This document shows, piece by piece, positions 1,181 to 31,957 of a DNA stretch of 38,876 nt. Under the pieces are notes generated by a model. That model was not told the DNA's origin. It did no database searches and saw only the letters and a list, made by a program, of their open reading frames with translations. Made by a program: the position numbers and the translations under genes. The DNA comes from Clostridia bacterium (GTDB taxonomy: Bacteria; Bacillota; Clostridia; UMGS1883), in NCBI GenBank assembly GCA_017414645.1, contig JAFQLL010000065.1, positions 1 to 38,876 on the forward strand. Reading direction: 5' to 3'. Within the stretch, counting starts at the first letter, position 1; the number at the start of each line of letters is the position of its first letter.

Positions 1181-1209
1181 ATTATATCAATTCACCGCTC
1201 TCTTGTCAA
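1181..1209 (-). promoter_or_regulatory. Perfect consensus sigma-A promoter
   Basis: On the minus strand TTGACA (1204-1209) and TATAAT (1181-1186) are separated by exactly 17 bases. It drives the Cys-rich protein gene whose ATG is at 1148. All twelve hexamer positions match consensus. Confidence 0.9.
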
Positions 1210-1212
1210 TTG

Positions 1213-1251
1213 AACAACAAAAAAAGAATGAGAGAAAAATCCCTCATTCTT
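1213..1251 (-). terminator. Terminator of the seven-gene surface/glycosylation operon
   Basis: AAGAATGAG pairs with CTCATTCTT (stem 1224-1232 with 1243-1251), followed on the minus strand by seven T. The 5' arm overlaps the stop codon of the GtrA gene (1244-1246). Confidence 0.85.
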
Positions 1252-1705
1252 CGGCTTTAAATGCGAAAAACCGCTGTCCTGTATAATTAAAAACCACAAA
1301 CAGACCCATGCCGACAATCGTTGCAACATTGTCGATAATCTGTTCTGTAGCATTAAGATACCCGAATGTTATAAACCTTACAAAATCGAACACTTCTATG
1401 GGTGCAAGCCCCATTAAAAATGTTGTAACAGGTTTTGCAATGCCGTAAGCAAGAAGCCAGCACACTGCAATGTTAACCGCAAACCTTAGGGCCTCTTTCT
1501 TAAGGTTGCCTTTACTTTTGAAGGTGAAATACTTGTTGAGGAAAAAGCTCATTACACTTGTGGGAATGTAGTTTAATGCACCTGCAAGCATAAAGCTAAG
1601 TCCAAAAACATTAAGTGCCGTAAAATTAATTGCATAGCCCACAAGAGTGTTAAGTATGCCCACAAGAATAAATTTAAAAAGCTTTTCGTCAACTACGTTT
1701 TTCAT
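1244..1705 (-). CDS. GtrA/GtcA-family membrane protein
   Basis: A 153-residue, four-helix membrane protein of the GtrA family (KFILVGILNTLVGYAINF near the N-terminus is typical). Members are thought to flip undecaprenyl-phosphate-linked sugars across the membrane; GtcA of Listeria and Bacillus does so for teichoic acid glycosylation together with a GT2 enzyme and YfhO. The start overlaps the GT2 stop codon by four bases (ATGA) and has a GAGGA site, so translation is probably coupled. Last gene of the operon; the terminator starts inside its stop codon. The family call is strong, the flippase role is inferred from context. Confidence 0.9.
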   Translation of the reverse strand: MKNVVDEKLFKFILVGILNTLVGYAINFTALNVFGLSFMLAGALNYIPTSVMSFFLNKYFTFKSKGNLKKEALRFAVNIAVCWLLAYGIAKPVTTFLMGLAPIEVFDFVRFITFGYLNATEQIIDNVATIVGMGLFVVFNYTGQRFFAFKAEE

Positions 1706-2640
1706 ATGTCTTCCTCGGTTTCTTTAACGATGTAAATAGGCCTCTTCTTTGTTTCAACATACATTTTCGCCATGTACTGCCCTAAAATGCCAATCATAAG
1801 CAGCTGAATGCCGCCGATGAGAAGCATTGCACACATAAGTGTGGGGAAACCTGCAACAGGCTCGCCGTAAACAAGTGTTTTTATAAAAATCACAAGGCCG
1901 AAAACGAATGCCATAATGCAGAACAAAATGCCAATGAAGGACGATGCCTGCAAGGGCGCAGTAGAAAAGGCTGTAATACCGTCTAAGGAATATGCAAAGA
2001 GCTTTTTGAAGGACCACTTTGTTTCGCCTGCAACACGCGCTACGTTTTCAAAAGGAATCCACTTTGTGTTAAAGCCCACCCAGCTGAAAATACCCTTTGA
2101 AAAACGGTTAACCTCGCTCATGTCGAGCACAGCATCAACCATTTTTCCGGTCATCATGCGGTAGTCGCACGCACCGGGAACAATGTTCGTATCGGAAAGC
2201 TTGTTGATAACGTCGTAAAAGCGCATTGCAAAGAAGGAGCGGATTTTAGGCTCGCCCAGCCTTTTAACTCTGCGGGTTGCAACGCAGTCATAGCCTTCCT
2301 CCTTTATTCCCTTATACATTTCGGGAATAAATTTGGGCGGATGCTGTAAGTCGGCATCCATAACAACAGTGAGATTACCCGTAACAGCCTTAAAGCCTGC
2401 ATACATTGCTGCTTCCTTGCCGAAATTACGGGAGAAAGAGATGTAGCGCACTCTGTCGTCCTTTTTTCTGAGTTCTCTTAACACCTCAACGGTTTTGTCG
2501 GCAGAGCCATCGTTTACAAATATGAATTCGAAGGCTGCATCTGTTTTCATTTCATCTGCTACACGAATAATTTCGTCGTAAAAGTAAGGCAGCGATAATT
2601 CCTCATTATAACAGGGCACCACTATTGATATCTTGTCCAT
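1702..2640 (-). CDS. GT2 polyprenyl-phosphate glycosyltransferase
   Basis: This 312-residue enzyme belongs to the GtrB/CsbB/dolichol-phosphate mannosyltransferase-like branch of GT2. It carries the N-terminal SIVVPCYNEE motif, the DADLQHPP metal-binding motif (about residues 95-102), a GACDYRMM motif and two C-terminal membrane helices. The expected reaction is transfer of a sugar from a nucleotide donor to undecaprenyl phosphate on the cytoplasmic face. The start lies inside the 3' end of the YfhO gene (35-base overlap) behind an AAGGAG site, and the stop overlaps the GtrA start. With YfhO and GtrA it forms a complete three-component glycosylation cassette. The sugar cannot be read from sequence. 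Confidence 0.9.
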   Translation of the reverse strand: MDKISIVVPCYNEELSLPYFYDEIIRVADEMKTDAAFEFIFVNDGSADKTVEVLRELRKKDDRVRYISFSRNFGKEAAMYAGFKAVTGNLTVVMDADLQHPPKFIPEMYKGIKEEGYDCVATRRVKRLGEPKIRSFFAMRFYDVINKLSDTNIVPGACDYRMMTGKMVDAVLDMSEVNRFSKGIFSWVGFNTKWIPFENVARVAGETKWSFKKLFAYSLDGITAFSTAPLQASSFIGILFCIMAFVFGLVIFIKTLVYGEPVAGFPTLMCAMLLIGGIQLLMIGILGQYMAKMYVETKKRPIYIVKETEEDI

Positions 2641-5284
2641 TTTTCTGTCTCCTTCCGGTTATAATGATAGCTACAATAAGCATAATAAGAGCTGCAATTG
2701 ATATTAAAACACCTGCACCAAAACCAAAGGGGGTGTAGCGCAAAACAATGCTGTGCTCGCCCTTTGCAAGCTCTACACCTATCATTGCGCCTTCAAAAGG
2801 TTTAATTTCGGTTTCTTTTCCGTCAACAAAAAGCCTCCAGCCTTTCTCGTAAGGAATGGATGTATAGAAGTAGCCGTCTTCAAGCGCATTTATCCTGCCC
2901 TTAATTTTTCTTGACTTATACTCTTCAATTTCAAAGCTTTCGTCACGAAGACGCTCCATACCCTCTTCAAAAAGCTTTTCGTTCATAGAATACACATGGA
3001 ATTTGACTGAGGCTTTGTCCTTGAAGGTATCTTCAAATTCGAACTTAAACTTGAACTTTTCGCCCTCGTGATAGCTGCCTGCAGGGAAAATGTAGGCTCT
3101 CTTGCCTACCTTGTAGGTTGTGTTAGACACAATAATTTTCTTAATCTGCTTACATTCAACGTATGCGTAAAGGGAGTTTTCATCAGGAGCAACGTAGTTC
3201 ATGTGAAGCACAGGCTTTTTGTCGGGGTCCTCGGTGAAGGTGTATTTGCCTTCATGGGCACCCGTAACCTTTATTGTGGACTCGCCTGCTATAGACTTAA
3301 GAGAAACCCTTGTAAACAAGTCACCCTCAAGGCCTGTTGCCTTACGGAACAAATCGTTCTGTACGTCGAAGGGGTTTTCGCCAAGGAGTGCAGAAGATAC
3401 TAATGCTTTATCTGTCATAAAGCCAAGGGGCAGCACCTCTGTATTCTTATAAATAACATTTTTATATTTTTCGTCCGCTGTCCATTCCTCTGCAACGCTT
3501 TCAAGGTAAGGGTTGAGGTTTTTCATGTCGTTTTTGAAAATGATATGCTCAACGCCTAAGAAAGAGTTAACAAGGGGCGAGGTTGTTTCGTAATAGTAGC
3601 GGTTCGCTCGTGCAGGTGCACAAAGCGCAAGCTTTTCCATAAGCTTTGTAACAGGATAGTTTGCTGTGGAGGTAAAGGTTGAAACACCCTTATAGCCGTA
3701 GAGAGCCGGGTCATTAAGAATGTATTCCTGGCTGGTTTCTACTCTTAAAAGAGACTCGTCGGCATCAACATCCTCTAAAAGACGTTCAACCTCTTCACCT
3801 CTGTAGTAATAGGTGGAATAGGTTGTTGTTCTTACGGTAGGAACTGCAATGGCAGTATTTATGAGCATTTCGATGATAATAACGCCGCACAAGGCCTCGT
3901 TCCAGATGCTTTGTGCAGAAGTATTTCTGTGCTGGTCGATGGTTGCCATGATAACAAAGTACACAATTGCAAGAGCGCTGCAGCCTAATATTGTGGCAAT
4001 TTCAGCCTTGGCAAAGGCACATACGATTACCGCTGCAGCAAAAAGAATTGGCAGAATATATGCTGCAGTTTTTCTTTTAGGTCTGTCTTCCCCTGTAAAC
4101 TCGGCAACATACGCTCTGTATGCTGTTATAACCATTGCAAAGGAAAATACGAATGCGTAGCGATAGGGCACCATGTTCGGCTTATGGAAGCCGTGCCAGA
4201 TAATGTCTAAATCGCTTATTGTTACGCTCAGAAGAAGCACCAGCAGCATAAGAGCTGTTGAAAGCTTTTCACTGAGCTTTATTTTTTTCGACATAAAGAA
4301 GAAACCAAGTAAAATTACAGATATAAATCCACTGAAAAGATTGGGCAGCCCTTCCTTGGGAACAGGCTCGTTAAAGGATGCCATACGGCCAATATTGTTT
4401 GCCGCATCCTCTTTTATGTCTTCAATAGCGTCTCCAAGGTCGATAATAAGGCTTTTTTCTGTATTGGCTGAATTTTTCGGCACGCTTGAAACAGTATCCT
4501 GCAGAGCTAAGTATGCAGGAATTGTCATGAATGCTGTGAGTGCCAAAGCAAGAATTGAGCAAAGAGCCATCATAAGCAGCTTTTTTGCAAACGCTTTTAA
4601 GCCCATGGAGCTTTTTGCGCATTCAAAGAAAAAGTAAATTGCTGTGAAAATGCACACCATAAAACCAATGTAGAAGTTGCTTATTACGGCAATCGCCAGA
4701 GAAACCACATACAAAATCCACTTATTTTCTTTTATGAGCGAATACACACCCAACATAACAAGGGGTAAAAGGGCAACGCAGTCGTGCCACATAATGTTCC
4801 AGTAGTAGCCCAGCACGTAGCCGCAAAGAGCATAAACCATGGAAAATGCAACTGTGGACTTGTCGTACCTTGAAAACACCTTCTTAAGGTACAAGGAAAA
4901 GAAAAGCCCCGAGAAGCCAACCTTGAGAGCAACCATCACAGCAAGAAGGTCACGGAGAGCTTCCTTTGAAACAAGTGTGATAAGAATGTTCAAAGGGCTT
5001 GCACAGTAGTATGCAATAAGTGCCCAGAAATTTATACCAAGACCAATGTTTTCTGAATACAGTATGGACTGGCCTTCCTTGAGCCTCTGTTGAAGCTCGC
5101 AAAGGAAAGGATAATACTGGTGCCACAGGTCGGTTACAAGAATCTGCTTATCACCGAAGGGATGCACACCGTTTATGATAAAAATGATATAAAGCGCAAG
5201 TGCAGGCAGCACAAAAGATGCTGCCCCCACAAGAAACGCTTTGTTTTTTAATAATCCTTTAAGTTGTTCTTTAAATTTAGCCAT
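2606..5284 (-). CDS. YfhO-family GT-C membrane glycosyltransferase
   Basis: An 892-residue polytopic protein of the YfhO family. About a dozen membrane segments fill residues 15-470, a large extracellular region follows, and a final membrane helix is at about 860-880. Bacillus and Listeria homologues accept a sugar from undecaprenyl phosphate outside the cell and attach it to lipoteichoic acid. The early loop acidic residues (VTDLWHQYYPF, about 49-59) fit the GT-C catalytic site. It starts 10 bases after the SPFH gene and its end overlaps the GT2 gene, so the three glycosylation genes are tightly coupled. The acceptor here could be a teichoic acid, another glycan or a surface protein. Confidence 0.88.
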   Translation of the reverse strand: MAKFKEQLKGLLKNKAFLVGAASFVLPALALYIIFIINGVHPFGDKQILVTDLWHQYYPFLCELQQRLKEGQSILYSENIGLGINFWALIAYYCASPLNILITLVSKEALRDLLAVMVALKVGFSGLFFSLYLKKVFSRYDKSTVAFSMVYALCGYVLGYYWNIMWHDCVALLPLVMLGVYSLIKENKWILYVVSLAIAVISNFYIGFMVCIFTAIYFFFECAKSSMGLKAFAKKLLMMALCSILALALTAFMTIPAYLALQDTVSSVPKNSANTEKSLIIDLGDAIEDIKEDAANNIGRMASFNEPVPKEGLPNLFSGFISVILLGFFFMSKKIKLSEKLSTALMLLVLLLSVTISDLDIIWHGFHKPNMVPYRYAFVFSFAMVITAYRAYVAEFTGEDRPKRKTAAYILPILFAAAVIVCAFAKAEIATILGCSALAIVYFVIMATIDQHRNTSAQSIWNEALCGVIIIEMLINTAIAVPTVRTTTYSTYYYRGEEVERLLEDVDADESLLRVETSQEYILNDPALYGYKGVSTFTSTANYPVTKLMEKLALCAPARANRYYYETTSPLVNSFLGVEHIIFKNDMKNLNPYLESVAEEWTADEKYKNVIYKNTEVLPLGFMTDKALVSSALLGENPFDVQNDLFRKATGLEGDLFTRVSLKSIAGESTIKVTGAHEGKYTFTEDPDKKPVLHMNYVAPDENSLYAYVECKQIKKIIVSNTTYKVGKRAYIFPAGSYHEGEKFKFKFEFEDTFKDKASVKFHVYSMNEKLFEEGMERLRDESFEIEEYKSRKIKGRINALEDGYFYTSIPYEKGWRLFVDGKETEIKPFEGAMIGVELAKGEHSIVLRYTPFGFGAGVLISIAALIMLIVAIIITGRRQKNGQDINSGALL

Positions 5285-5294
5285 GTGTTTTCAC

Positions 5295-6185
5295 TCAATT
5301 CTGTTTATCTGTCATAACCTCTTTCAAAGAAGCTGCGAGGGTTGTAAGGTTCTGTATTTCAGAAGGTATAATAAGCTTTGTAGCCTGACCGTCTGCAACC
5401 TTTTCCAATGCTTCAAGACTTCTGATTGAAATGGTTTCCTTAGTAGGATTAGCCTGATTGATTAATTCAATACCCTTAGCTATAGCTGTCTGCACACGCA
5501 AAATGGCCTCAGCTTCACCCTCTGCCTCGCGGATTTTGGATTCTCTTACTGCCTCAGCACGCAGGATTGCACTTTCCTTTTCACCTTCTGCAACCAAGAT
5601 GGCACTTCTCTTTTCGCCTTCAGCACGCAGGATTGCTTCACGTCTTTCACGCTCTGCCTTCATCTGCTTTTCCATTGCATCCTGAATTTCGGCAGGAGGA
5701 ATAATGTTCTTAAGCTCAACACGATTGATTTTAATACCCCAAGGGTCGGTAGCCTCGTCGAGGATTGTACGCATTTTTGCGTTTACAACGTCACGGGAGG
5801 TAAGTGTTTCGTCAAGCTCCATTTCACCGATGATATTTCTGAGAGTTGTTGCGGTGAGTGTTTCAATTGCCATCATGGGGTGTTCAACACCGTAGCAATA
5901 AAGCTTGGGGTCAGTTATCTGGAAATAAACAACGGTATCGATCTGCATTGTTACGTTATCCTTTGTGATAACTGCCTGAGGGCGGAAGTCGGCAACTCTC
6001 TCCTTAAGGTTAACGGTTGCTACAACACGGTCAATAAAAGGCACTTTAAAGTGTAAGCCTACAGACCAGGTTTCTTTATATGCACCAAGGCGTTCAATTA
6101 CAACAGCCTTTGCCTGGGGTACAATTTTAATATTAAGAACAACAATTACTAATGCGATAATTATTAAAGCTATAACAAATGCCAT
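5295..6185 (-). CDS. SPFH/band 7 (stomatin/slipin-like) membrane scaffold protein
   Basis: A 296-residue protein with one N-terminal membrane segment (residues 3-20), then an SPFH domain (AKAVVIERLGAYKETWSVGLHFKVPF) and an Ala/Glu-rich coiled coil (about 180-235) with repeated RAEGEKRSAILVAEGEKESAI-type heptads. Such proteins oligomerise at the membrane and organise microdomains or hold membrane proteases. It lies 3 bases downstream of an NfeD gene, the classic partner pair. The ATG at 6185 is preceded by GAGGG. Role is by family; the link to the neighbouring glycosylation genes is inferred from operon structure. Confidence 0.92.
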   Translation of the reverse strand: MAFVIALIIIALVIVVLNIKIVPQAKAVVIERLGAYKETWSVGLHFKVPFIDRVVATVNLKERVADFRPQAVITKDNVTMQIDTVVYFQITDPKLYCYGVEHPMMAIETLTATTLRNIIGEMELDETLTSRDVVNAKMRTILDEATDPWGIKINRVELKNIIPPAEIQDAMEKQMKAERERREAILRAEGEKRSAILVAEGEKESAILRAEAVRESKIREAEGEAEAILRVQTAIAKGIELINQANPTKETISIRSLEALEKVADGQATKLIIPSEIQNLTTLAASLKEVMTDKQN

Positions 6186-6188
6186 ATT

Positions 6189-6614
6189 TTATCCCTCAAC
6201 TTTCTTTACAAGTAATTTTACGCCTTCAATGGCGCAAACCTCTACATTTTCGCCTGCAGGAATGCTTTCCGTAGCCTTTGCAGACCACAAATTGCCCTGC
6301 ACAGTTACCGTGCCCTTACCCATTACGGGATCAATCGGGCTATCTACAACGCCTCTTGCGCCTATCAAGCGGTCGGCATTTGTTCTTTCATGCTTCTGCT
6401 TGAATTTGCCGCCGAAGAGCTTCTGGAACAAAACAACTGCAATTGCCGATACTACTGCAAAGGTCAGCACACAGATGTTTGTGTCTACGCCCACATAGGC
6501 AAGAACCGCCGCCACAAGAGAACCAAGGGCGAACCAGATAGAAATAAGCATAGGTGTAACTGCCTCTATTATGAGAAACAGCACCATAGCACAAATCCAA
6601 AAAACAGCATCCAT
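6189..6614 (-). CDS. NfeD-family membrane protein (short form)
   Basis: At 141 residues this is the short NfeD form: three to four hydrophobic helices in residues 1-65, followed by a C-terminal OB-fold domain (about 80-141, with GARGVVDSPIDPVMGKGTV and a final VKLLVKKVEG). It lacks the ClpP-like serine protease domain of long NfeD proteins. NfeD partners with SPFH proteins, and the SPFH gene follows after 3 bases. The start has a GAGGTAA site. It lies 12 bases downstream of the SLH/cohesin-like gene. Confidence 0.9.
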   Translation of the reverse strand: MDAVFWICAMVLFLIIEAVTPMLISIWFALGSLVAAVLAYVGVDTNICVLTFAVVSAIAVVLFQKLFGGKFKQKHERTNADRLIGARGVVDSPIDPVMGKGTVTVQGNLWSAKATESIPAGENVEVCAIEGVKLLVKKVEG

Positions 6615-6626
6615 AAAAATTACCTC

Positions 6627-7721
6627 TTAACCTCTTGAAACAAGAATGTTGAACTCAGCCAGTTTATTAAGCAAAACAGCGGCTTCTGCTCTTGTCATTG
6701 TATCTTCGGGGCGAAGAAGGTTTTTGTCATCGCCCTGCAAAATTTTAGCTCTTACCAGCCCTGCCATGCATTCAAGCGCATAGGGAGCTACAGTTTCCTT
6801 ATCGGAGAATGTGCCAATGTACTTTTCAATGTCGATAGTTGGGTCTACCTTGTTCATTTTAAGCATTGTTCTGTAAACAAGACAGCACACATCCTGACGG
6901 GAGATTGTATCGTCGGGACGGAAGTTGCCGTTTAAATCACCTTTGGCAATGCCCAGAACCCTTGCTGCCATAATATGCTCATACTGGTAGCTTTCCTTGT
7001 CAACATCGGGGAATTCCTGAGCCTCTTTTGTTGACTTCTGCTTGCATATTCTCATGAGCATGGTTATGAATTCACCACGGGTAATTTCCTTTCCGGGATA
7101 GAAGGACTTATCGGCAATGTTTTCTGTAATGTTCAGCTTTGCCATAACACCTACGGCTTTTTCTGCCCAGTCGTAACCAAACATGTCGTCGAAGGGAGTT
7201 GCAGGCTCTGCGTCTTTATAAAGAGTTTCCTCCTCACCGTCAGTATCTTCAGCTATTGTAACGGTGGTGCCTGCTACATCGAGTGTGTAGAAGGCGTTTT
7301 CTTTAGGCTTACCGAGCATGCAGTCGTCAAGAAGCTCTATTTTCAGTTCGCCGCTCTTTTTTGCTTCGAAAAGAAGAGAAACTACAACAGGCTCATCGGT
7401 TCCTTTTATGGTCTGGTCGTAGCCTTCAAAAAGGAATGTGCCCTTTTCGTTGTCGAACTTGTTTGTAAGAATACCAAGATTTTCGTTGGAATATACCGGT
7501 GCTACAAGCTCTGCAAGAGAGCTGTCGAAGGTTCCGTTAACGCGGAAGGTGAGAAACTTTGCATCGTCTGTTTTCATAATGTCAACCAGAAACTGGTCGC
7601 CTACCTCAACAACATCCTTTACTTTTACAGCACTCATCTGAAGCTCAGCTTCCTGAGCCAATGCTGTAAAAGGCATTACAAAGAGTGCAAGCGCTACTAA
7701 AATACAAATAAATTTTTTCAT
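6627..7721 (-). CDS. SLH-anchored surface protein with cohesin-like domain
   Basis: This 364-residue secreted protein has a signal peptide (residues 1-22, ending ALA), a beta-sandwich region at about 25-155 resembling cohesin domains (VEVGDQFLVDIMKTDDAKFL near its start), an acidic linker, and SLH repeats over about 180-355 (GYDWAEKAVGVMAKLNI, ITRGEFITMLMRI, FRPDDTISRQDV, MTRAEAAVLLNKLAEF). SLH domains bind pyruvylated cell-wall polymers. The cohesin-like part could receive dockerin proteins, but no dockerin motif is visible in the window. The gene lies 19 bases after the lipoprotein gene and 12 before nfeD. The SLH call is firm; the cohesin call is moderate. Confidence 0.85.
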   Translation of the reverse strand: MKKFICILVALALFVMPFTALAQEAELQMSAVKVKDVVEVGDQFLVDIMKTDDAKFLTFRVNGTFDSSLAELVAPVYSNENLGILTNKFDNEKGTFLFEGYDQTIKGTDEPVVVSLLFEAKKSGELKIELLDDCMLGKPKENAFYTLDVAGTTVTIAEDTDGEEETLYKDAEPATPFDDMFGYDWAEKAVGVMAKLNITENIADKSFYPGKEITRGEFITMLMRICKQKSTKEAQEFPDVDKESYQYEHIMAARVLGIAKGDLNGNFRPDDTISRQDVCCLVYRTMLKMNKVDPTIDIEKYIGTFSDKETVAPYALECMAGLVRAKILQGDDKNLLRPEDTMTRAEAAVLLNKLAEFNILVSRG

Positions 7722-7740
7722 TGTTTATCCCTCTTTTAAA

Positions 7741-8274
7741 TTACTGCATAATTGTTTCAGCTGCAGTGTAGCTTGTTACAAAGTAACCGCCATTCTGAAG
7801 CTCAATGTAAATGTCGTAGGATGTTCTTGTAACACCATCGCTTTCGATTGTTGTTACTGTGGAGAAATACATGTTGTCGATATCTTCAATGGGCTGAGGA
7901 GTACTGCATTCAACCTGAAGAGGCTTTTCATTTTCTCTGCCGAAGTAGAAGTTCCAGATAGCATAATCGCTCTTCATTCTGTTAAGGTAAATTTCCTTAA
8001 GTTCATCAGAATAAAGTGCATACAAAATGGCACCATTACCCTGCATTTTAGCCTGACGCCAGTTCATTACAACCTCCTCAAGGCTCTGTGCACGATAACC
8101 GTTAAGAAATTCAGCCGAAGCATCCAGGTCTGTGTTCCAGAATTCTTCCTGAACCTGAGCACCTGTTATATCACTGGGCTTAAGCTTTTCCTTGCCTGCG
8201 CAGCCTGTAAGTACCAGAGAAAACAGCATAACAGTGCAAAGAACAACAGCAATACTTCTTCTTGTAATTTTCAT
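7741..8274 (-). CDS. Predicted lipoprotein of unknown function
   Basis: A 177-residue protein with a lipoprotein signal (MKITRRS, hydrophobic stretch, lipobox LTGC at about residues 21-24). The ATG at 8274 was chosen over an upstream extension because GGGAGG lies 9 bases before it and the signal peptide begins there. The mature part (EEVVMNWRQAKMQGNGAIL and the YDIYIELQNGGYFVTS strand region) resembles small secreted alpha+beta (NTF2-like) folds, but I do not recognise a family. It is the first gene of the seven-gene operon, behind a TTGAAA-17-TATAAT promoter, and would sit on the outer membrane face. Confidence 0.8.
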   Translation of the reverse strand: MKITRRSIAVVLCTVMLFSLVLTGCAGKEKLKPSDITGAQVQEEFWNTDLDASAEFLNGYRAQSLEEVVMNWRQAKMQGNGAILYALYSDELKEIYLNRMKSDYAIWNFYFGRENEKPLQVECSTPQPIEDIDNMYFSTVTTIESDGVTRTSYDIYIELQNGGYFVTSYTAAETIMQ

Positions 8275-8314
8275 AGTTTTTTCCTCCCAAAAATTAATAT
8301 AATACCTTGATTTT

Positions 8315-8343
8315 ATTATACTATTAATTAACCGAGATTTCAA
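8315..8343 (-). promoter_or_regulatory. Sigma-A promoter of the seven-gene operon
   Basis: TTGAAA (8338-8343) and TATAAT (8315-8320) are spaced by 17 bases on the minus strand, 41 bases upstream of the lipoprotein ATG. No further terminator or strong promoter is visible until 1251. Confidence 0.85.
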
Positions 8344-8441: not shown

Positions 8442-11129
8442 TTAGTTTTTGCCAAGGTATTCGTAAAGACGAACAGCAATTGTAGCAACTGTCTGGCGGT
8501 CAACCTTGTTCTTGGGTAAGAACTGACCGAACTGGTCACCTGTCATGATGCCTGTCTTGTTAACAGCCGCAACGTAAATTCTTGCCCACATAGAGATGGA
8601 AGCACCATCTGCAAACAAGAATGCATCGTTTTCTTCGCCTGTTACATTAAGAATTCTGGAAACCATAACGGCAATTTCTTCACGTGTAATGTAGTTGGAA
8701 GGAGCAAAGATTGTTTCGCTCATACCGTTTACATAGCCTGCCTTGTATGCAGCCATTACGTAGCCATAGTGCCAGTCAGAGGGTGTAACGTCAGTAAACT
8801 TCTGTTCATATGCAGATGCATCGGTGTTAAGACCAAGAATTCTGCAGATGATTGTTGTAAATTCTGCTCTTGTGATTTCTCTCTTAGGCTCGAACCAGCC
8901 CTGTGCTGTACCGCTCATAAGGCCATAGTCGTGCGCCTTATTTACGTTTGCTACTGCCCAAGTGTCAATGTTGGTGTCAGGATAGTACTTGGAAGGACCG
9001 GGAACGAAGGATTCTTCTTCCTTGGGAACTGTTTCATATTCACCGGGTTCCCAGGTGTTTTCTTCCTCAGGCTCTGTAGGTCTTGTTTCCCAGGTTTCAT
9101 CTTCTTCTGTTGCTTTTTCCATCTTTGCTTCAAGCTCTTCCTTACAATCCTTACAAACTTCGCGTTCCTTGTTCTTGTAAACAACTGTGTAAACCTTGTT
9201 TGTGCCTTCGCCGCAGTATTCGCATTCGAAGTCGTACTCGGGTTCTGTCTTCTTTTCTGTGGATGTACCTGTTGTAGTCTTTGATGCACCTGTGTACTTA
9301 AGCTCAACGCTGCCAAATACAGCAGAGGGGCATTCGTCAGCCTTTACAGCAACCTGTTCACCCCAGGAAAGAGTGTATGTGCCCTTGTACTCAACTGTGG
9401 GAAGAGTAACTCTACCGTCAGCATTTGTGTTGAGGGGCTTGTTGTTGTATTCATCACCATCAAAGTATACGTCCAAATCGTCGATGGCATTTGTCATATC
9501 GGCATCAGAATAGAAGTATGCATAAACCTTCTTTTCTGTTTCAAGGTCGCCGTCGATCTTGCAGTAAACGAGCGGAACTGTGTCCTCGTCACCAAAGTAG
9601 AAGAGGATTTCGTCGTTGGGGTAAATTTCAACCTCTTCAAGGTCATCCTCGGGTGTGTAAATGTCGTCATTTACAGCAACGTACCAACCACTGTCACGAA
9701 CGATGTCGCCGTTTTCGTTGGAGTAGCCTGTTGTGGACTTGGATTCAAAATATGTGAAGTTTGTTTCGTCGTTGTTTGTTTCGTAGTCGATGTCTTCGTC
9801 TTCCAATACTTCAACCATGAAGTTGTAAAGGTCGAATTCATCGATCTTAGCACTCTTTGTTCTCTGAAGAAGAGTCTTATGAGCGCCTTCAATTCTTACA
9901 TAAGCCTGAACAGTACCTTCACGGTCTGTCATAAGTTCTTCCTTAACTGTTACCATTGTGAGAGGCTTGCTGGAAGACTGATAGCCGCCAACCATAACTT
10001 CGCCACCCTGGTAGGATGTGATCCAGCTTGCTGTTACTGTAGAAGACTTGAATACGTATTCACCGTCAGCATTTGTTGTCTTTGCAGTACCCTTGCTGTC
10101 GGAGCCACGCTTAAGAAGGTAAATCTTTGCGCCCTTAACGGGGTCTTCAGATACCTGTTCGCCGTTTTCGTCGAAAAGTCTGTTCTTTACTGTAATAGTA
10201 ACTTCGTCCTTAACACTGATATAATCGGGAGAAATGTCAATTACAGGGTAACCTACTTCACCGGGGACACCATAGAAAACAACAATTTCGTCGCCGCCCT
10301 TAACTTCGTCTGTCCAGTCGCCGTCGTAGTCAGCATGTTCGCCGTTCATGATGTAAGCCCATTCACAGTCTTCATAATATCTGCTTGTGGAGTTGTCCTT
10401 AAGTGTGTATGTAGAGCCTGTAGCTGTAGAAGCAACAGCTGTAACCTTTGTCTTGGAAGACTTGTACTCACGGTCTGCTTCGTCGAGAACGTATTCAACA
10501 ACCTCTAAAACAGTGGGCTTCTTAACGCTGTCAAGATTTACAACTGTTTCGTCGATGTAACGCTCTGTTAAGCCTTCAATCCATACAGTAACCTTGTTGG
10601 AGCCGTCGTCAACGCTTGTTGATGTGTTGCTCTTCTTGATAAGGAAGCTGTCAGCATAAAGCTCTTCGTTTGTATCGTCGTCGTAAACAGTAACGTCGTA
10701 TTCCGCACCTACAGATGCATCTTCAAGGTCAAAGGAAATACCTGTTGTCTTGAACTTGGATGCAGAAATAATATCGGAGAATTCAACTCTGTCGTCTTCG
10801 CAGATGATTTCAACGCGAACTACAGAAACGTCGCCTGTAACTGTACCCTTTACAACTACAGTTCCGTTGGGATAGTAGGCGTTGGAAAGGCTTACGTTAG
10901 CAGACTTTTCTTCCTCTTCTTCCTCAGTAGTTTCTTCTTCAGTTTCTTCTTCAGTTTCTTCTTCGGTTTCCTCTTCGGTTTCTTCCTCAGTAGGTTCCGT
11001 TTCAGGTGTTGTCGCCTCTGTTGTGGGTTCTTCTTCACTGCCTGTACCCTCTTCAGCAAAAACGCTTACAGAGCACACAGAAAGAACCATGCACATAGCA
11101 AGAAGCAACGCCAATAATTTTTTTGTCAT
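8442..11129 (-). CDS. Large SLH surface protein with DUF4430-like domains and zinc ribbon
   Basis: An 895-residue secreted protein. Signal peptide residues 1-25; Thr/Glu-rich acidic stalk about 27-75 with EEET repeats; an Ig-like segment about 76-165; two DUF4430/transcobalamin-C-like domains (about 178-287 and 403-513, the first containing EWAYIMNGEHAD); Ig-like carboxypeptidase-regulatory-type segments between and after (about 295-395 and 518-610); a CxxC...CxxC knuckle (about 635-661); a second acidic linker; and three SLH repeats (about 715-895). It is anchored non-covalently to the wall. Function is unknown; DUF4430 domains often bind ligands or partner proteins on the cell surface. It has its own promoter (11185-11213) and terminator and an AAGGAGGG ribosome site. 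Confidence 0.88.
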   Translation of the reverse strand: MTKKLLALLLAMCMVLSVCSVSVFAEEGTGSEEEPTTEATTPETEPTEEETEEETEEETEEETEEETTEEEEEEKSANVSLSNAYYPNGTVVVKGTVTGDVSVVRVEIICEDDRVEFSDIISASKFKTTGISFDLEDASVGAEYDVTVYDDDTNEELYADSFLIKKSNTSTSVDDGSNKVTVWIEGLTERYIDETVVNLDSVKKPTVLEVVEYVLDEADREYKSSKTKVTAVASTATGSTYTLKDNSTSRYYEDCEWAYIMNGEHADYDGDWTDEVKGGDEIVVFYGVPGEVGYPVIDISPDYISVKDEVTITVKNRLFDENGEQVSEDPVKGAKIYLLKRGSDSKGTAKTTNADGEYVFKSSTVTASWITSYQGGEVMVGGYQSSSKPLTMVTVKEELMTDREGTVQAYVRIEGAHKTLLQRTKSAKIDEFDLYNFMVEVLEDEDIDYETNNDETNFTYFESKSTTGYSNENGDIVRDSGWYVAVNDDIYTPEDDLEEVEIYPNDEILFYFGDEDTVPLVYCKIDGDLETEKKVYAYFYSDADMTNAIDDLDVYFDGDEYNNKPLNTNADGRVTLPTVEYKGTYTLSWGEQVAVKADECPSAVFGSVELKYTGASKTTTGTSTEKKTEPEYDFECEYCGEGTNKVYTVVYKNKEREVCKDCKEELEAKMEKATEEDETWETRPTEPEEENTWEPGEYETVPKEEESFVPGPSKYYPDTNIDTWAVANVNKAHDYGLMSGTAQGWFEPKREITRAEFTTIICRILGLNTDASAYEQKFTDVTPSDWHYGYVMAAYKAGYVNGMSETIFAPSNYITREEIAVMVSRILNVTGEENDAFLFADGASISMWARIYVAAVNKTGIMTGDQFGQFLPKNKVDRQTVATIAVRLYEYLGKN
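10929..10988. repeat. Five 12-bp tandem repeats encoding EEET stalk
   Basis: Five consecutive 12-base units of the form AGTTTCTTCTTC (plus strand; later units carry single-base changes) encode repeated Glu-Glu-Glu-Thr in the acidic stalk of the large SLH protein. The whole-codon unit length lets copy number change without a frameshift. Confidence 0.85.
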
Positions 11130-30844: not shown

Positions 30845-31957
30845 TCAGTTTAGTTCTTCTTTTACGCACTCAAGTGCAGCTGCAATTACGTTGTGCATGT
30901 CAAAATATTTATACATGCCTAATCTTCCGCCGAAAATAACCTTTCTTTCGCTCTTTGCCTTTTCAAGATATTTTTGATAAAGAGCGTTGTTTTTGTCGTC
31001 GTTCATGGGGTAATAGGGCTCGTCGCCTCTTTGCCAGGTTGCAGGGTATTCTCTTGTGATTACTGTTTTTTTGTTTTCGGTTCCGTTCTGACACATGAAT
31101 TCAAAATGCTTGTGTTCAATTATTCTTGTGTAGGGAATTTCCTTTTCGGTGTAGTTTACAACAGCATTGCCCTGGTAGTTTTCACAGTCCAGAATTTCTG
31201 TTTCAAACCTTAATGAACGGTATTCAAGCTGACCGTAGCAATAGTCATAAAACTCGTCAATCATGCCTGTGAATACAACTTTATCGGCTAAGGAAAGATA
31301 CTCGTCCTTCTTGTCAAAGAAGTTTTCGTTGAGCCTTACCTCAACACCCTCCAGCATTTTTTCAACAATCTGTGTGTAGCCGCCAACAGGAATGCCCTGA
31401 TATTTATCGTTAAAGTAGTTGTTGTCGTACACAAAGCGCACAGGGAGCCTTTTTATGATAAAGCTGGGCAGGTCTTTACAGTCCTTCCCCCACTGCTTTG
31501 CTGTGTAGCCCTTTACAAGCTTTTCATAAATGTCGGTGCCAACCATGCTTATTGCCTGCTCTTCAAGGTTATTCGGTTCACCGATGCCCGCCTGTTTGAT
31601 TTGTTCTTCAATTTTTGCTTTAGCTTCGCCCGGGGTTTTCACACCCCACATTTTTGAAAAGGTATTCATGTTAAAGGGCAGATTATACATTTCGCCCTTA
31701 TAATTTGCCACAGGCTCGTTTGTGTAGCGGTTAAATTCACAAAAGGAATTAACATAGTCCCACACTTCTTTGTTGCTTGTGTGGAAAATATGTGCGCCGT
31801 ACTCATGCACCTGAATCCCTTCAACCTCTTTTGTGTAAATGTTACCGCCTATATGGCTTCGTTTATCTATAACAAGAACGCTCTTGCCTGCTTTTTTTGC
31901 CTCGTGTGCAAAAACAGCTCCGAACAAGCCTGCGCCTACAATGAGATAATCGTACAT
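30845..31957 (-). CDS. glf: UDP-galactopyranose mutase
   Basis: A 370-residue flavoenzyme converting UDP-galactopyranose to UDP-galactofuranose for surface glycans. It has the FAD Rossmann motif YLIVGAGLFGAVFAHEA (residues 4-20), the EYGAHIFHTSN segment (about 53-63), KQWGKDCKDLP (about 155-165, active-site region) and a C-terminal GRLGMYKYFDMHNVI (about 343-357). Length is normal. AGGAGG precedes the ATG by about 9 bases. It lies 39 bases after the GH43 gene without an intervening terminator, so the two may be co-transcribed. It implies galactofuranose in this organism's surface polymers. Confidence 0.96.
   Translation of the reverse strand: MYDYLIVGAGLFGAVFAHEAKKAGKSVLVIDKRSHIGGNIYTKEVEGIQVHEYGAHIFHTSNKEVWDYVNSFCEFNRYTNEPVANYKGEMYNLPFNMNTFSKMWGVKTPGEAKAKIEEQIKQAGIGEPNNLEEQAISMVGTDIYEKLVKGYTAKQWGKDCKDLPSFIIKRLPVRFVYDNNYFNDKYQGIPVGGYTQIVEKMLEGVEVRLNENFFDKKDEYLSLADKVVFTGMIDEFYDYCYGQLEYRSLRFETEILDCENYQGNAVVNYTEKEIPYTRIIEHKHFEFMCQNGTENKKTVITREYPATWQRGDEPYYPMNDDKNNALYQKYLEKAKSERKVIFGGRLGMYKYFDMHNVIAAALECVKEELN

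Follow-up and report, generated by a model that had tools for sequence, protein, structure and literature searches.

A minus-strand operon of a Clostridia bacterium joins a lipoprotein-SLH pair, an SPFH-NfeD pair and a YfhO-GT2-GtrA cassette

Gene order and transcription signals

The contig JAFQLL010000065.1 of the genome assembly GCA_017414645.1, from an uncultured Clostridia bacterium, was analysed over its positions 1 to 38,876, and this whole stretch of 38,876 nucleotides is called the window hereafter. It carries on the minus strand an operon of seven genes, which are transcribed in the order LIPO, SLHs, NfeD, SPFH, YfhO, GT2 and GtrA. The operon joins three known modules, namely a lipoprotein with an SLH-domain protein (module A, LIPO and SLHs), NfeD with an SPFH protein (module B), and a glycosylation cassette (module C, YfhO, GT2 and GtrA). 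The features of the locus are the following.

1213–1252, minus strand: intrinsic terminator at the operon end, with a 13-pair stem at 1252–1223 and a T tail to about 1213
1244–1705, minus strand: GtrA, flippase-type protein of 153 amino acids (PF04138, 68.9 bits), module C; overlaps GT2 by 4 bases
1702–2640, minus strand: GT2, glycosyltransferase of the polyprenyl-phosphate type, 312 amino acids (PF00535, 120.9 bits), module C; overlaps YfhO by 35 bases
2606–5284, minus strand: YfhO, membrane glycosyltransferase of the GT-C type, 892 amino acids (PF09586, 548 bits, model positions 1–835 of 835), module C
5295–6185, minus strand: SPFH protein of the QmcA/stomatin type, 296 amino acids (Band_7, PF01145, 142.7 bits), module B
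6189–6614, minus strand: NfeD, short form of 141 amino acids (PF01957, 61.4 bits; no other Pfam domain, so without the protease domain), module B
6627–7721, minus strand: SLHs, secreted protein of 364 amino acids with an N-terminal domain of no known family and three SLH domains (PF00395, 107.7 bits), module A
7741–8274, minus strand: LIPO, lipoprotein of 177 amino acids with an LTGC lipobox recognised by eye, module A
8315–8343, minus strand: sigma-70 type promoter TTGAAA-17-TATAAT, score 11/12
8442–11129, minus strand: SLHl, SLH protein of 895 amino acids with three SLH domains, upstream of the operon and outside it

The seven genes and their spacing, as described in the original prediction of this locus, were reproduced: in the direction of transcription the intergenic gaps are 19, 12, 3 and 10 bases, followed by overlaps of 35 and 4 bases. 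All seven genes start with ATG, and a clear purine-rich ribosome-binding site precedes six of them, that of YfhO (GAGTG) being weak. The same prediction took the genes for a single unit between one promoter and one terminator; both signals are present, and in the four aligned genomes of the genus, the window included, both promoter hexamers with their spacing and the terminator are conserved. The terminator has the most base pairs among all terminator-like sites scanned, and its stem starts within the last codons of GtrA, which corrects the earlier description. A single match to either kind of signal proves little, because in the first 10 kb the numbers of promoter-like sites (25 observed versus 18.9 in shuffled sequences, standard deviation 4.6) and of terminator-like sites (13 versus 9.4, standard deviation 3.1) are near the shuffled background. 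Weak promoter-like sites are found within the operon on the same strand, for example at 5327–5298 (9/12) just before YfhO, so that a second transcription start before YfhO is possible on sequence grounds. The G+C content of the seven genes lies at 0.38–0.47 around a window mean of 0.43, and composition therefore flags no module as recent.

Just past the operon terminator, at window positions 1181–1209, there is a perfect TTGACA-17-TATAAT promoter (12/12, with TG before the −10 hexamer), located upstream of a gene for 125 amino acids at 771–1148 and conserved in the four aligned genomes of the genus.

Proteins of the three modules

The presence of a complete YfhO-GT2-GtrA cassette was confirmed, all three families being recognised by Pfam. 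The YfhO protein, the only YfhO match in its genome assembly, has residues D52, Q56, D168, H364 and R375 kept in 97–100% of 29 aligned rows (one of the 27 class loci, L069, was excluded from this alignment by a length cut-off), and this conservation makes them candidate catalytic residues. Its best NCBIfam match is PgfM2, with 304.1 bits versus a cut-off of 1500. The closest solved structure to GT2 is GtrB sll0501 (5ekp, E 1e-74), hydrophobic segments occupy its C-terminal positions 225–286, and its best NCBIfam match is PgfS with 329.7 bits versus a cut-off of 500, so that neither enzyme reaches the score of a Pgf family member. The overlap between YfhO and GT2 measures 35 bases in the window and in genome G002 of the same genus, and 8 bases in genome G005 of a second genus of the family. 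Elsewhere in the window's genome (G000) a second GtrA lies near another PgfS-like GT2 (165 bits; L120:3540–5785, G000:C89), with no YfhO match there.

The SPFH-NfeD pair of the original prediction was likewise found. The best PDB match of the SPFH protein is QmcA (8z5g, residues 2–295, E 1.8e-61), one N-terminal hydrophobic segment is present, and the SPFH tree, built under a strict motif filter, holds 9 rows. NfeD adjoins SPFH at a gap of 3 bases, and both characters of an SPFH1-NfeD1 pair, a QmcA-type SPFH protein and a short NfeD, are seen; module B is an ordinary SPFH-NfeD pair. Literature statements here and below follow the accessible excerpts of the papers cited. According to these, 229 of 353 SPFH1 genes are in an operon with NfeD (PMC2636767), a cytoplasm-facing orientation is predicted for QmcA, and in Escherichia coli qmcA adjoins an nfeD-like gene (PMC10434171), the FloA-NfeD pair of Staphylococcus aureus stabilises unfolded client proteins in membranes (PMC11222466), and oligomeric membrane scaffolding is established for SPFH relatives (PMC11222466, PMC10434171).

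LIPO is the only protein of the operon without a Pfam-supported name, no Pfam family being matched. In the class sample its relatives are strong matches in 5 genomes (G004 lying outside the sample) and weak ones, with E from 4e-9 to 8.5e-4, in 10 others, and one of the weak relatives carries a sub-threshold DUF3828 match. The G005 relative (L049:8280–8843) has a hydrophobic N-terminal segment and no lipobox cysteine, which suggests that membrane anchoring may persist by other means. The SLHs profile matches the SLH domains of the S-layer protein Sap in the PDB. The original description of this protein as cohesin-like was not upheld, since no match of SLHs to PF00963 was obtained at an E limit of 10 (the HMMER filters drop most matches above 0.1); the domain is detectable in the same genome, where another protein matches Cohesin at 1e-9. 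A protein with cohesin and dockerin domains adjoins csaB in this genome (L118:1–2133, G000:C74), which hints at a cellulosome-like assembly.

The two surface proteins differ in composition from the upstream neighbour SLHl, which is conserved at this place in the g1, g2 and g3 genomes and has a Thr/Glu-rich stretch at residues 29–68, with 13 Thr in 40 residues. LIPO is moderately rich in these acceptor-type residues (12 Ser+Thr, 8 of them Thr, in 40), and SLHs has at most 7 Ser+Thr in 40 and no Ser/Thr-rich region.

The combination was originally held to be undescribed, and this holds for the open-access literature searched, in which neither a description of NfeD together with YfhO nor one of this arrangement was found; the cnm-pgfS-pgfM1-pgfE-pgfM2 operon and GtsABC are partial precedents. 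The CsbB-GtcA-YfhO system of Bacillus subtilis, Staphylococcus aureus and Listeria consists of the same three protein families, with the candidate catalytic residues conserved. In B. subtilis csbB and yfhO are in one operon, whereas here YfhO precedes and overlaps GT2; gtcA lies elsewhere in B. subtilis and S. aureus, to judge from the locus numbers in the table of PMC8035078, whereas here GtrA is in the operon. The locus differs further from this system in that SPFH-NfeD and SLH genes are joined to the cassette and a teichoic acid acceptor is unlikely. GtsABC of Bacillus anthracis, which acts on the secondary cell-wall polymer (SCWP), resembles the present cassette, by description and not by sequence, in having GT-A, flippase-type and GT-C parts in an SLH-bearing envelope; its GT-C enzyme is given as PMT-2 type (PMC8035078, excerpt), whereas here it is YfhO. 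The Pgf operon of Streptococcus mutans provides the best NCBIfam matches and likewise includes a co-transcribed surface protein gene, whereas the window operon encodes no strongly Thr-rich protein, includes GtrA and lacks an epimerase gene. With the SPFH1-NfeD1 operons, such as QmcA-YbbJ of E. coli, the locus shares the QmcA-type SPFH and the short NfeD, and differs in the glycosylation cassette that follows.

Distribution of the operon and of its modules

A complete operon with the same 35- and 4-base overlaps was found in a metagenome-assembled genome (MAG) from roe deer rectum (L032, taken as G002), and in a goat rectum MAG (L033, L035) the operon is present with a contig end inside YfhO; the flanking genes on both sides are conserved too. 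In G003 and G004, which belong to the window's genus, the operon is in pieces at contig ends, G004 having both ends on two short contigs, and in G001 of the same genus, a genome 59% complete, no LIPO, YfhO or NfeD was found. G005, the one genome of the second genus, has all seven genes in order, with identities to the window of 47% for NfeD, 85–87% for SPFH, 54% for YfhO and 81% for GT2; about 340–380 bases lie before GtrA, and the tight spacing is otherwise retained. The unit, shared by two genera, is therefore real and has been maintained by selection or, failing that, through common descent. The predicted conservation of the neighbourhood in relatives thus stands as regards gene order, and its extent is limited to two genera.

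G006, which represents the third genus, has only the LIPO-SLHs part of the operon at this place; dnaK-dnaJ-prmA-rsmE-SLHl is followed there by two short frames and then by LIPO and SLHs, and the other five genes are missing. The NfeD-SPFH pair of this genome is on another contig, beside a stretch that looks clpC/mcsB-like by eye, and its only YfhO match, 21% identical and in a different gene cluster, is a distant paralogue. Of 29 genomes of the order, 6 have YfhO, and exactly these have LIPO as well, a shared distribution that is weak evidence of co-function because the carriers are related genera.

Within the class, YfhO is present in 110 and an SPFH relative in 274 of 392 genomes, the latter count including paralogues of any kind. 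NfeD stands beside SPFH without a match to the other five proteins in 26 further loci (flanks of up to 1.5 kb). The surroundings of YfhO were surveyed in 40 loci, each from a different genus, which covers 40 of the 73 YfhO-bearing genera and excludes the genus of the window together with its two sisters; up to 8.5 kb were read on each side, 13 loci having a flank shorter than 6 kb owing to contig ends, and the frames were compared with the window proteins by blastp (E below 1e-8). SPFH or NfeD was near YfhO in none of the 40 loci under these settings, an SLH gene in one (L149, 3.6 kb away), GT2 was beside YfhO in 18, and GtrA was detected in 4, which is an undercount, as at least one more was recognised by Pfam. 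In genus g61 a second, different and divergent YfhO lies 4–12 kb from NfeD-SPFH in at least 8 of 10 genomes, among the matches listed; the g61 copy included in the survey is not this YfhO. In the four g61 loci inspected (L096–L099) GT2 is on the strand opposite YfhO, and unrelated genes lie between YfhO and NfeD-SPFH. In two further families of clostridia the gene next to a YfhO cassette encodes a Thr-rich protein with a hydrophobic N-terminus (L140:11099–12844, L139:4399–6279).

In a quick tree the YfhO proteins from the two operon genera fall together with those of G365, a genome of another family, and of a Eubacterium MAG, while 23 of the 29 genomes of the order are without YfhO. The G365 cassette, the closest relative, is free-standing and consists of YfhO with divergent GT2-GtrA, no SPFH, NfeD or SLH match being present in about 19 kb. 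The simplest history would be a lateral gain of the cassette, which came together with NfeD-SPFH and the older LIPO-SLHs pair before the two genera diverged.

Proposed function and acceptor

The operon is tentatively read as an envelope operon in which an extracytoplasmic glycosylation cassette is joined to an SPFH-NfeD pair and a surface-protein pair, with the SCWP as the likeliest acceptor; enzyme activity, sugar, acceptor and co-function of the modules are what we infer. Three-component machines of this kind are described as consisting of a GT2 that loads a sugar on undecaprenyl phosphate, a GtrA protein that flips it and a GT-C enzyme that transfers it outside (PMC8035078, excerpt). By analogy, GT2 would attach one sugar to undecaprenyl phosphate on the inner side of the membrane, GtrA would flip the sugar-lipid across and YfhO would transfer the sugar outside, most likely to the CsaB-pyruvylated SCWP on which SLH proteins are anchored, or to the lipid-linked repeat of that polymer. 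One transcript would in this way make an SLH protein and tune its ligand. With YfhO placed before GT2 and the two genes overlapping, GT2 would be produced only along with the ligase by which the carrier lipid is released. Such an order and overlap would fit a need for the ligase first, as in B. subtilis CsbB without YfhO is reported to trap the carrier lipid and to induce SigM (PMC11081497, excerpt). The SPFH-NfeD pair, encoded on the same message, might serve in a general way as a membrane scaffold or in quality control, facing the cytoplasm.

Among the acceptors put forward in the original prediction, the polymer bound by SLH domains emerged as the likeliest. CsaB owes its name to the pyruvylation of the polymer to which SLH domains attach. 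In every one of the seven genomes from the three genera (G000–G006) it scores above its cut-off, and SLHs itself has three SLH domains, so that both elements of SLH/SCWP anchoring are found. In G000 CsaB is fused behind a GT4 domain in a protein of 735 amino acids (L118:2701–4908, G000:C74), which an O-antigen-ligase-family gene adjoins; at the CsaB match the frames of 11 further genomes in the order have 737–832 codons, versus 365–408 in the full-length matches of g4 and g5, and the GT4-CsaB fusion is therefore probably common to part of the order. The gene at window positions 30845–31957, whose product by eye resembles UDP-galactopyranose mutase, may hint at galactofuranose in a surface glycan. 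As far as the excerpts go, the SLH ligand is the pyruvylated SCWP (PMC6030368), and three-component systems decorate cell-wall polysaccharides, the B. anthracis SCWP being decorated by GtsABC (PMC8035078, Table 1). The co-encoded SLH protein, also proposed as acceptor, was discarded given its low Ser+Thr content, no acceptor-like stretch being present in SLHs; LIPO, the other co-encoded protein proposed, is no more than moderately Ser/Thr-rich.

Several observations weigh against the SCWP reading. The GT-C enzyme of the one SCWP system, GtsABC, is of the PMT-2 type and not YfhO (PMC8035078, excerpt). Many proteins labelled YfhO are said to form a separate GT-C family (PMC10584680, excerpt), and the window protein may belong to either, YfhO proper or the separate one. 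In the order CsaB exceeds its cut-off in 20 genomes, 14 of which are without YfhO, so that the SCWP does not need the cassette, and the second GtrA-GT2 in the window's genome means that the pool of sugar-lipid need not depend on this cassette alone. The separation of the modules in relatives argues against obligatory coupling. One PF00884 protein is present in each of G000, G001, G003 and G004, and the absences reported below for G002 and G005 are provisional, these genomes being 89% and 96% complete, respectively.

It is quite possible that descent alone has put three independent envelope modules on one transcript, without any joint function. This passive neighbourhood would account for the retention of LIPO-SLHs in G006 without the other five genes, with NfeD-SPFH elsewhere and a YfhO match of low identity, for the NfeD-SPFH loci standing without the other five proteins, for the free-standing cassette of G365, for the empty count of SPFH and NfeD in the 40-locus survey and for the grouping of the operon YfhO with distant relatives in an order where most genomes are without it. 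It fits less well with a unit that survived between two genera while NfeD and YfhO fell to about half identity and the spacing stayed tight except before GtrA, with the occurrence of LIPO and YfhO in the same six genomes (the genera being related, however, and the YfhO of G006 only a distant paralogue), or with the proximity of the second YfhO of g61 to NfeD-SPFH (though unrelated genes lie between). O-Glycosylation of Thr-rich extracellular proteins such as SLHl, as Pgf acts on Cnm and WapA in S. mutans, is an unlikely function of the cassette. The PgfS and PgfM2 matches, both under cut-off, the Thr content of SLHl and LIPO, the precedent of a cnm-pgf operon (PMC5856776, excerpt) and, in 5 of the 40 loci, a frame no more than 1.5 kb from YfhO that is Thr-rich and hydrophobic at its N-terminus speak for it. 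Such frames are, however, not significantly enriched near YfhO (5 of 129 near versus 6 of 267 far genes, p 0.35, genes at 1.5–3 kb from the cassette being in neither group and the thresholds having been set after two of the five cases, G279 and G365, had been seen). Moreover, SLHs is without a Ser/Thr-rich stretch, SLHl of G006 is Ser/Thr-rich though that genome lacks the cassette, and SLHl of G002, where the cassette is present, has only 8 Thr in 40 residues.

Decoration of a classical teichoic acid, as in Bacillus, Staphylococcus and Listeria, is very improbable, although the families are identical to CsbB-GtcA-YfhO and four of the five genomes of the genus have a PF00884 (LtaS/sulfatase) protein. 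Two of these proteins were scanned; the G000 protein is a distant LtaS match (90 bits versus a cut-off of 970), and for the G003 protein NCBIfam gave no match. G005 and the five genomes of the genus gave no match to the TagB/F family (PF04464), which leaves none in a carrier genome, and G002 and G005 carry the operon yet have no PF00884 match; teichoic acid as the acceptor is accordingly not supported. It is possible that SPFH/NfeD scaffolds the glycosylation machinery, as had also been suggested. Since QmcA is predicted to face the cytoplasm, the cytoplasmic domain of GT2 would be a likelier physical partner than the outer domain of YfhO. A full microdomain, with an SPFH cage and NfeD gathering GT2, GtrA and YfhO and the polymer being sugar-modified as the SLH proteins emerge, ligand and protein coming from one operon, appears improbable.

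The operon is a new, lineage-restricted combination of parts that are all of known kinds. Its seven genes may plausibly act as one functional system, a reading to be taken with caution given that the modules come apart in relatives. The arrangement, well preserved though restricted to its lineage, offers a genetic link from an SPFH-NfeD pair, a kind of protein pair with few well-known partners, to a defined membrane enzyme pathway, and it suggests a YfhO system acting on a target other than teichoic acid in bacteria that anchor their surface proteins by SLH domains.

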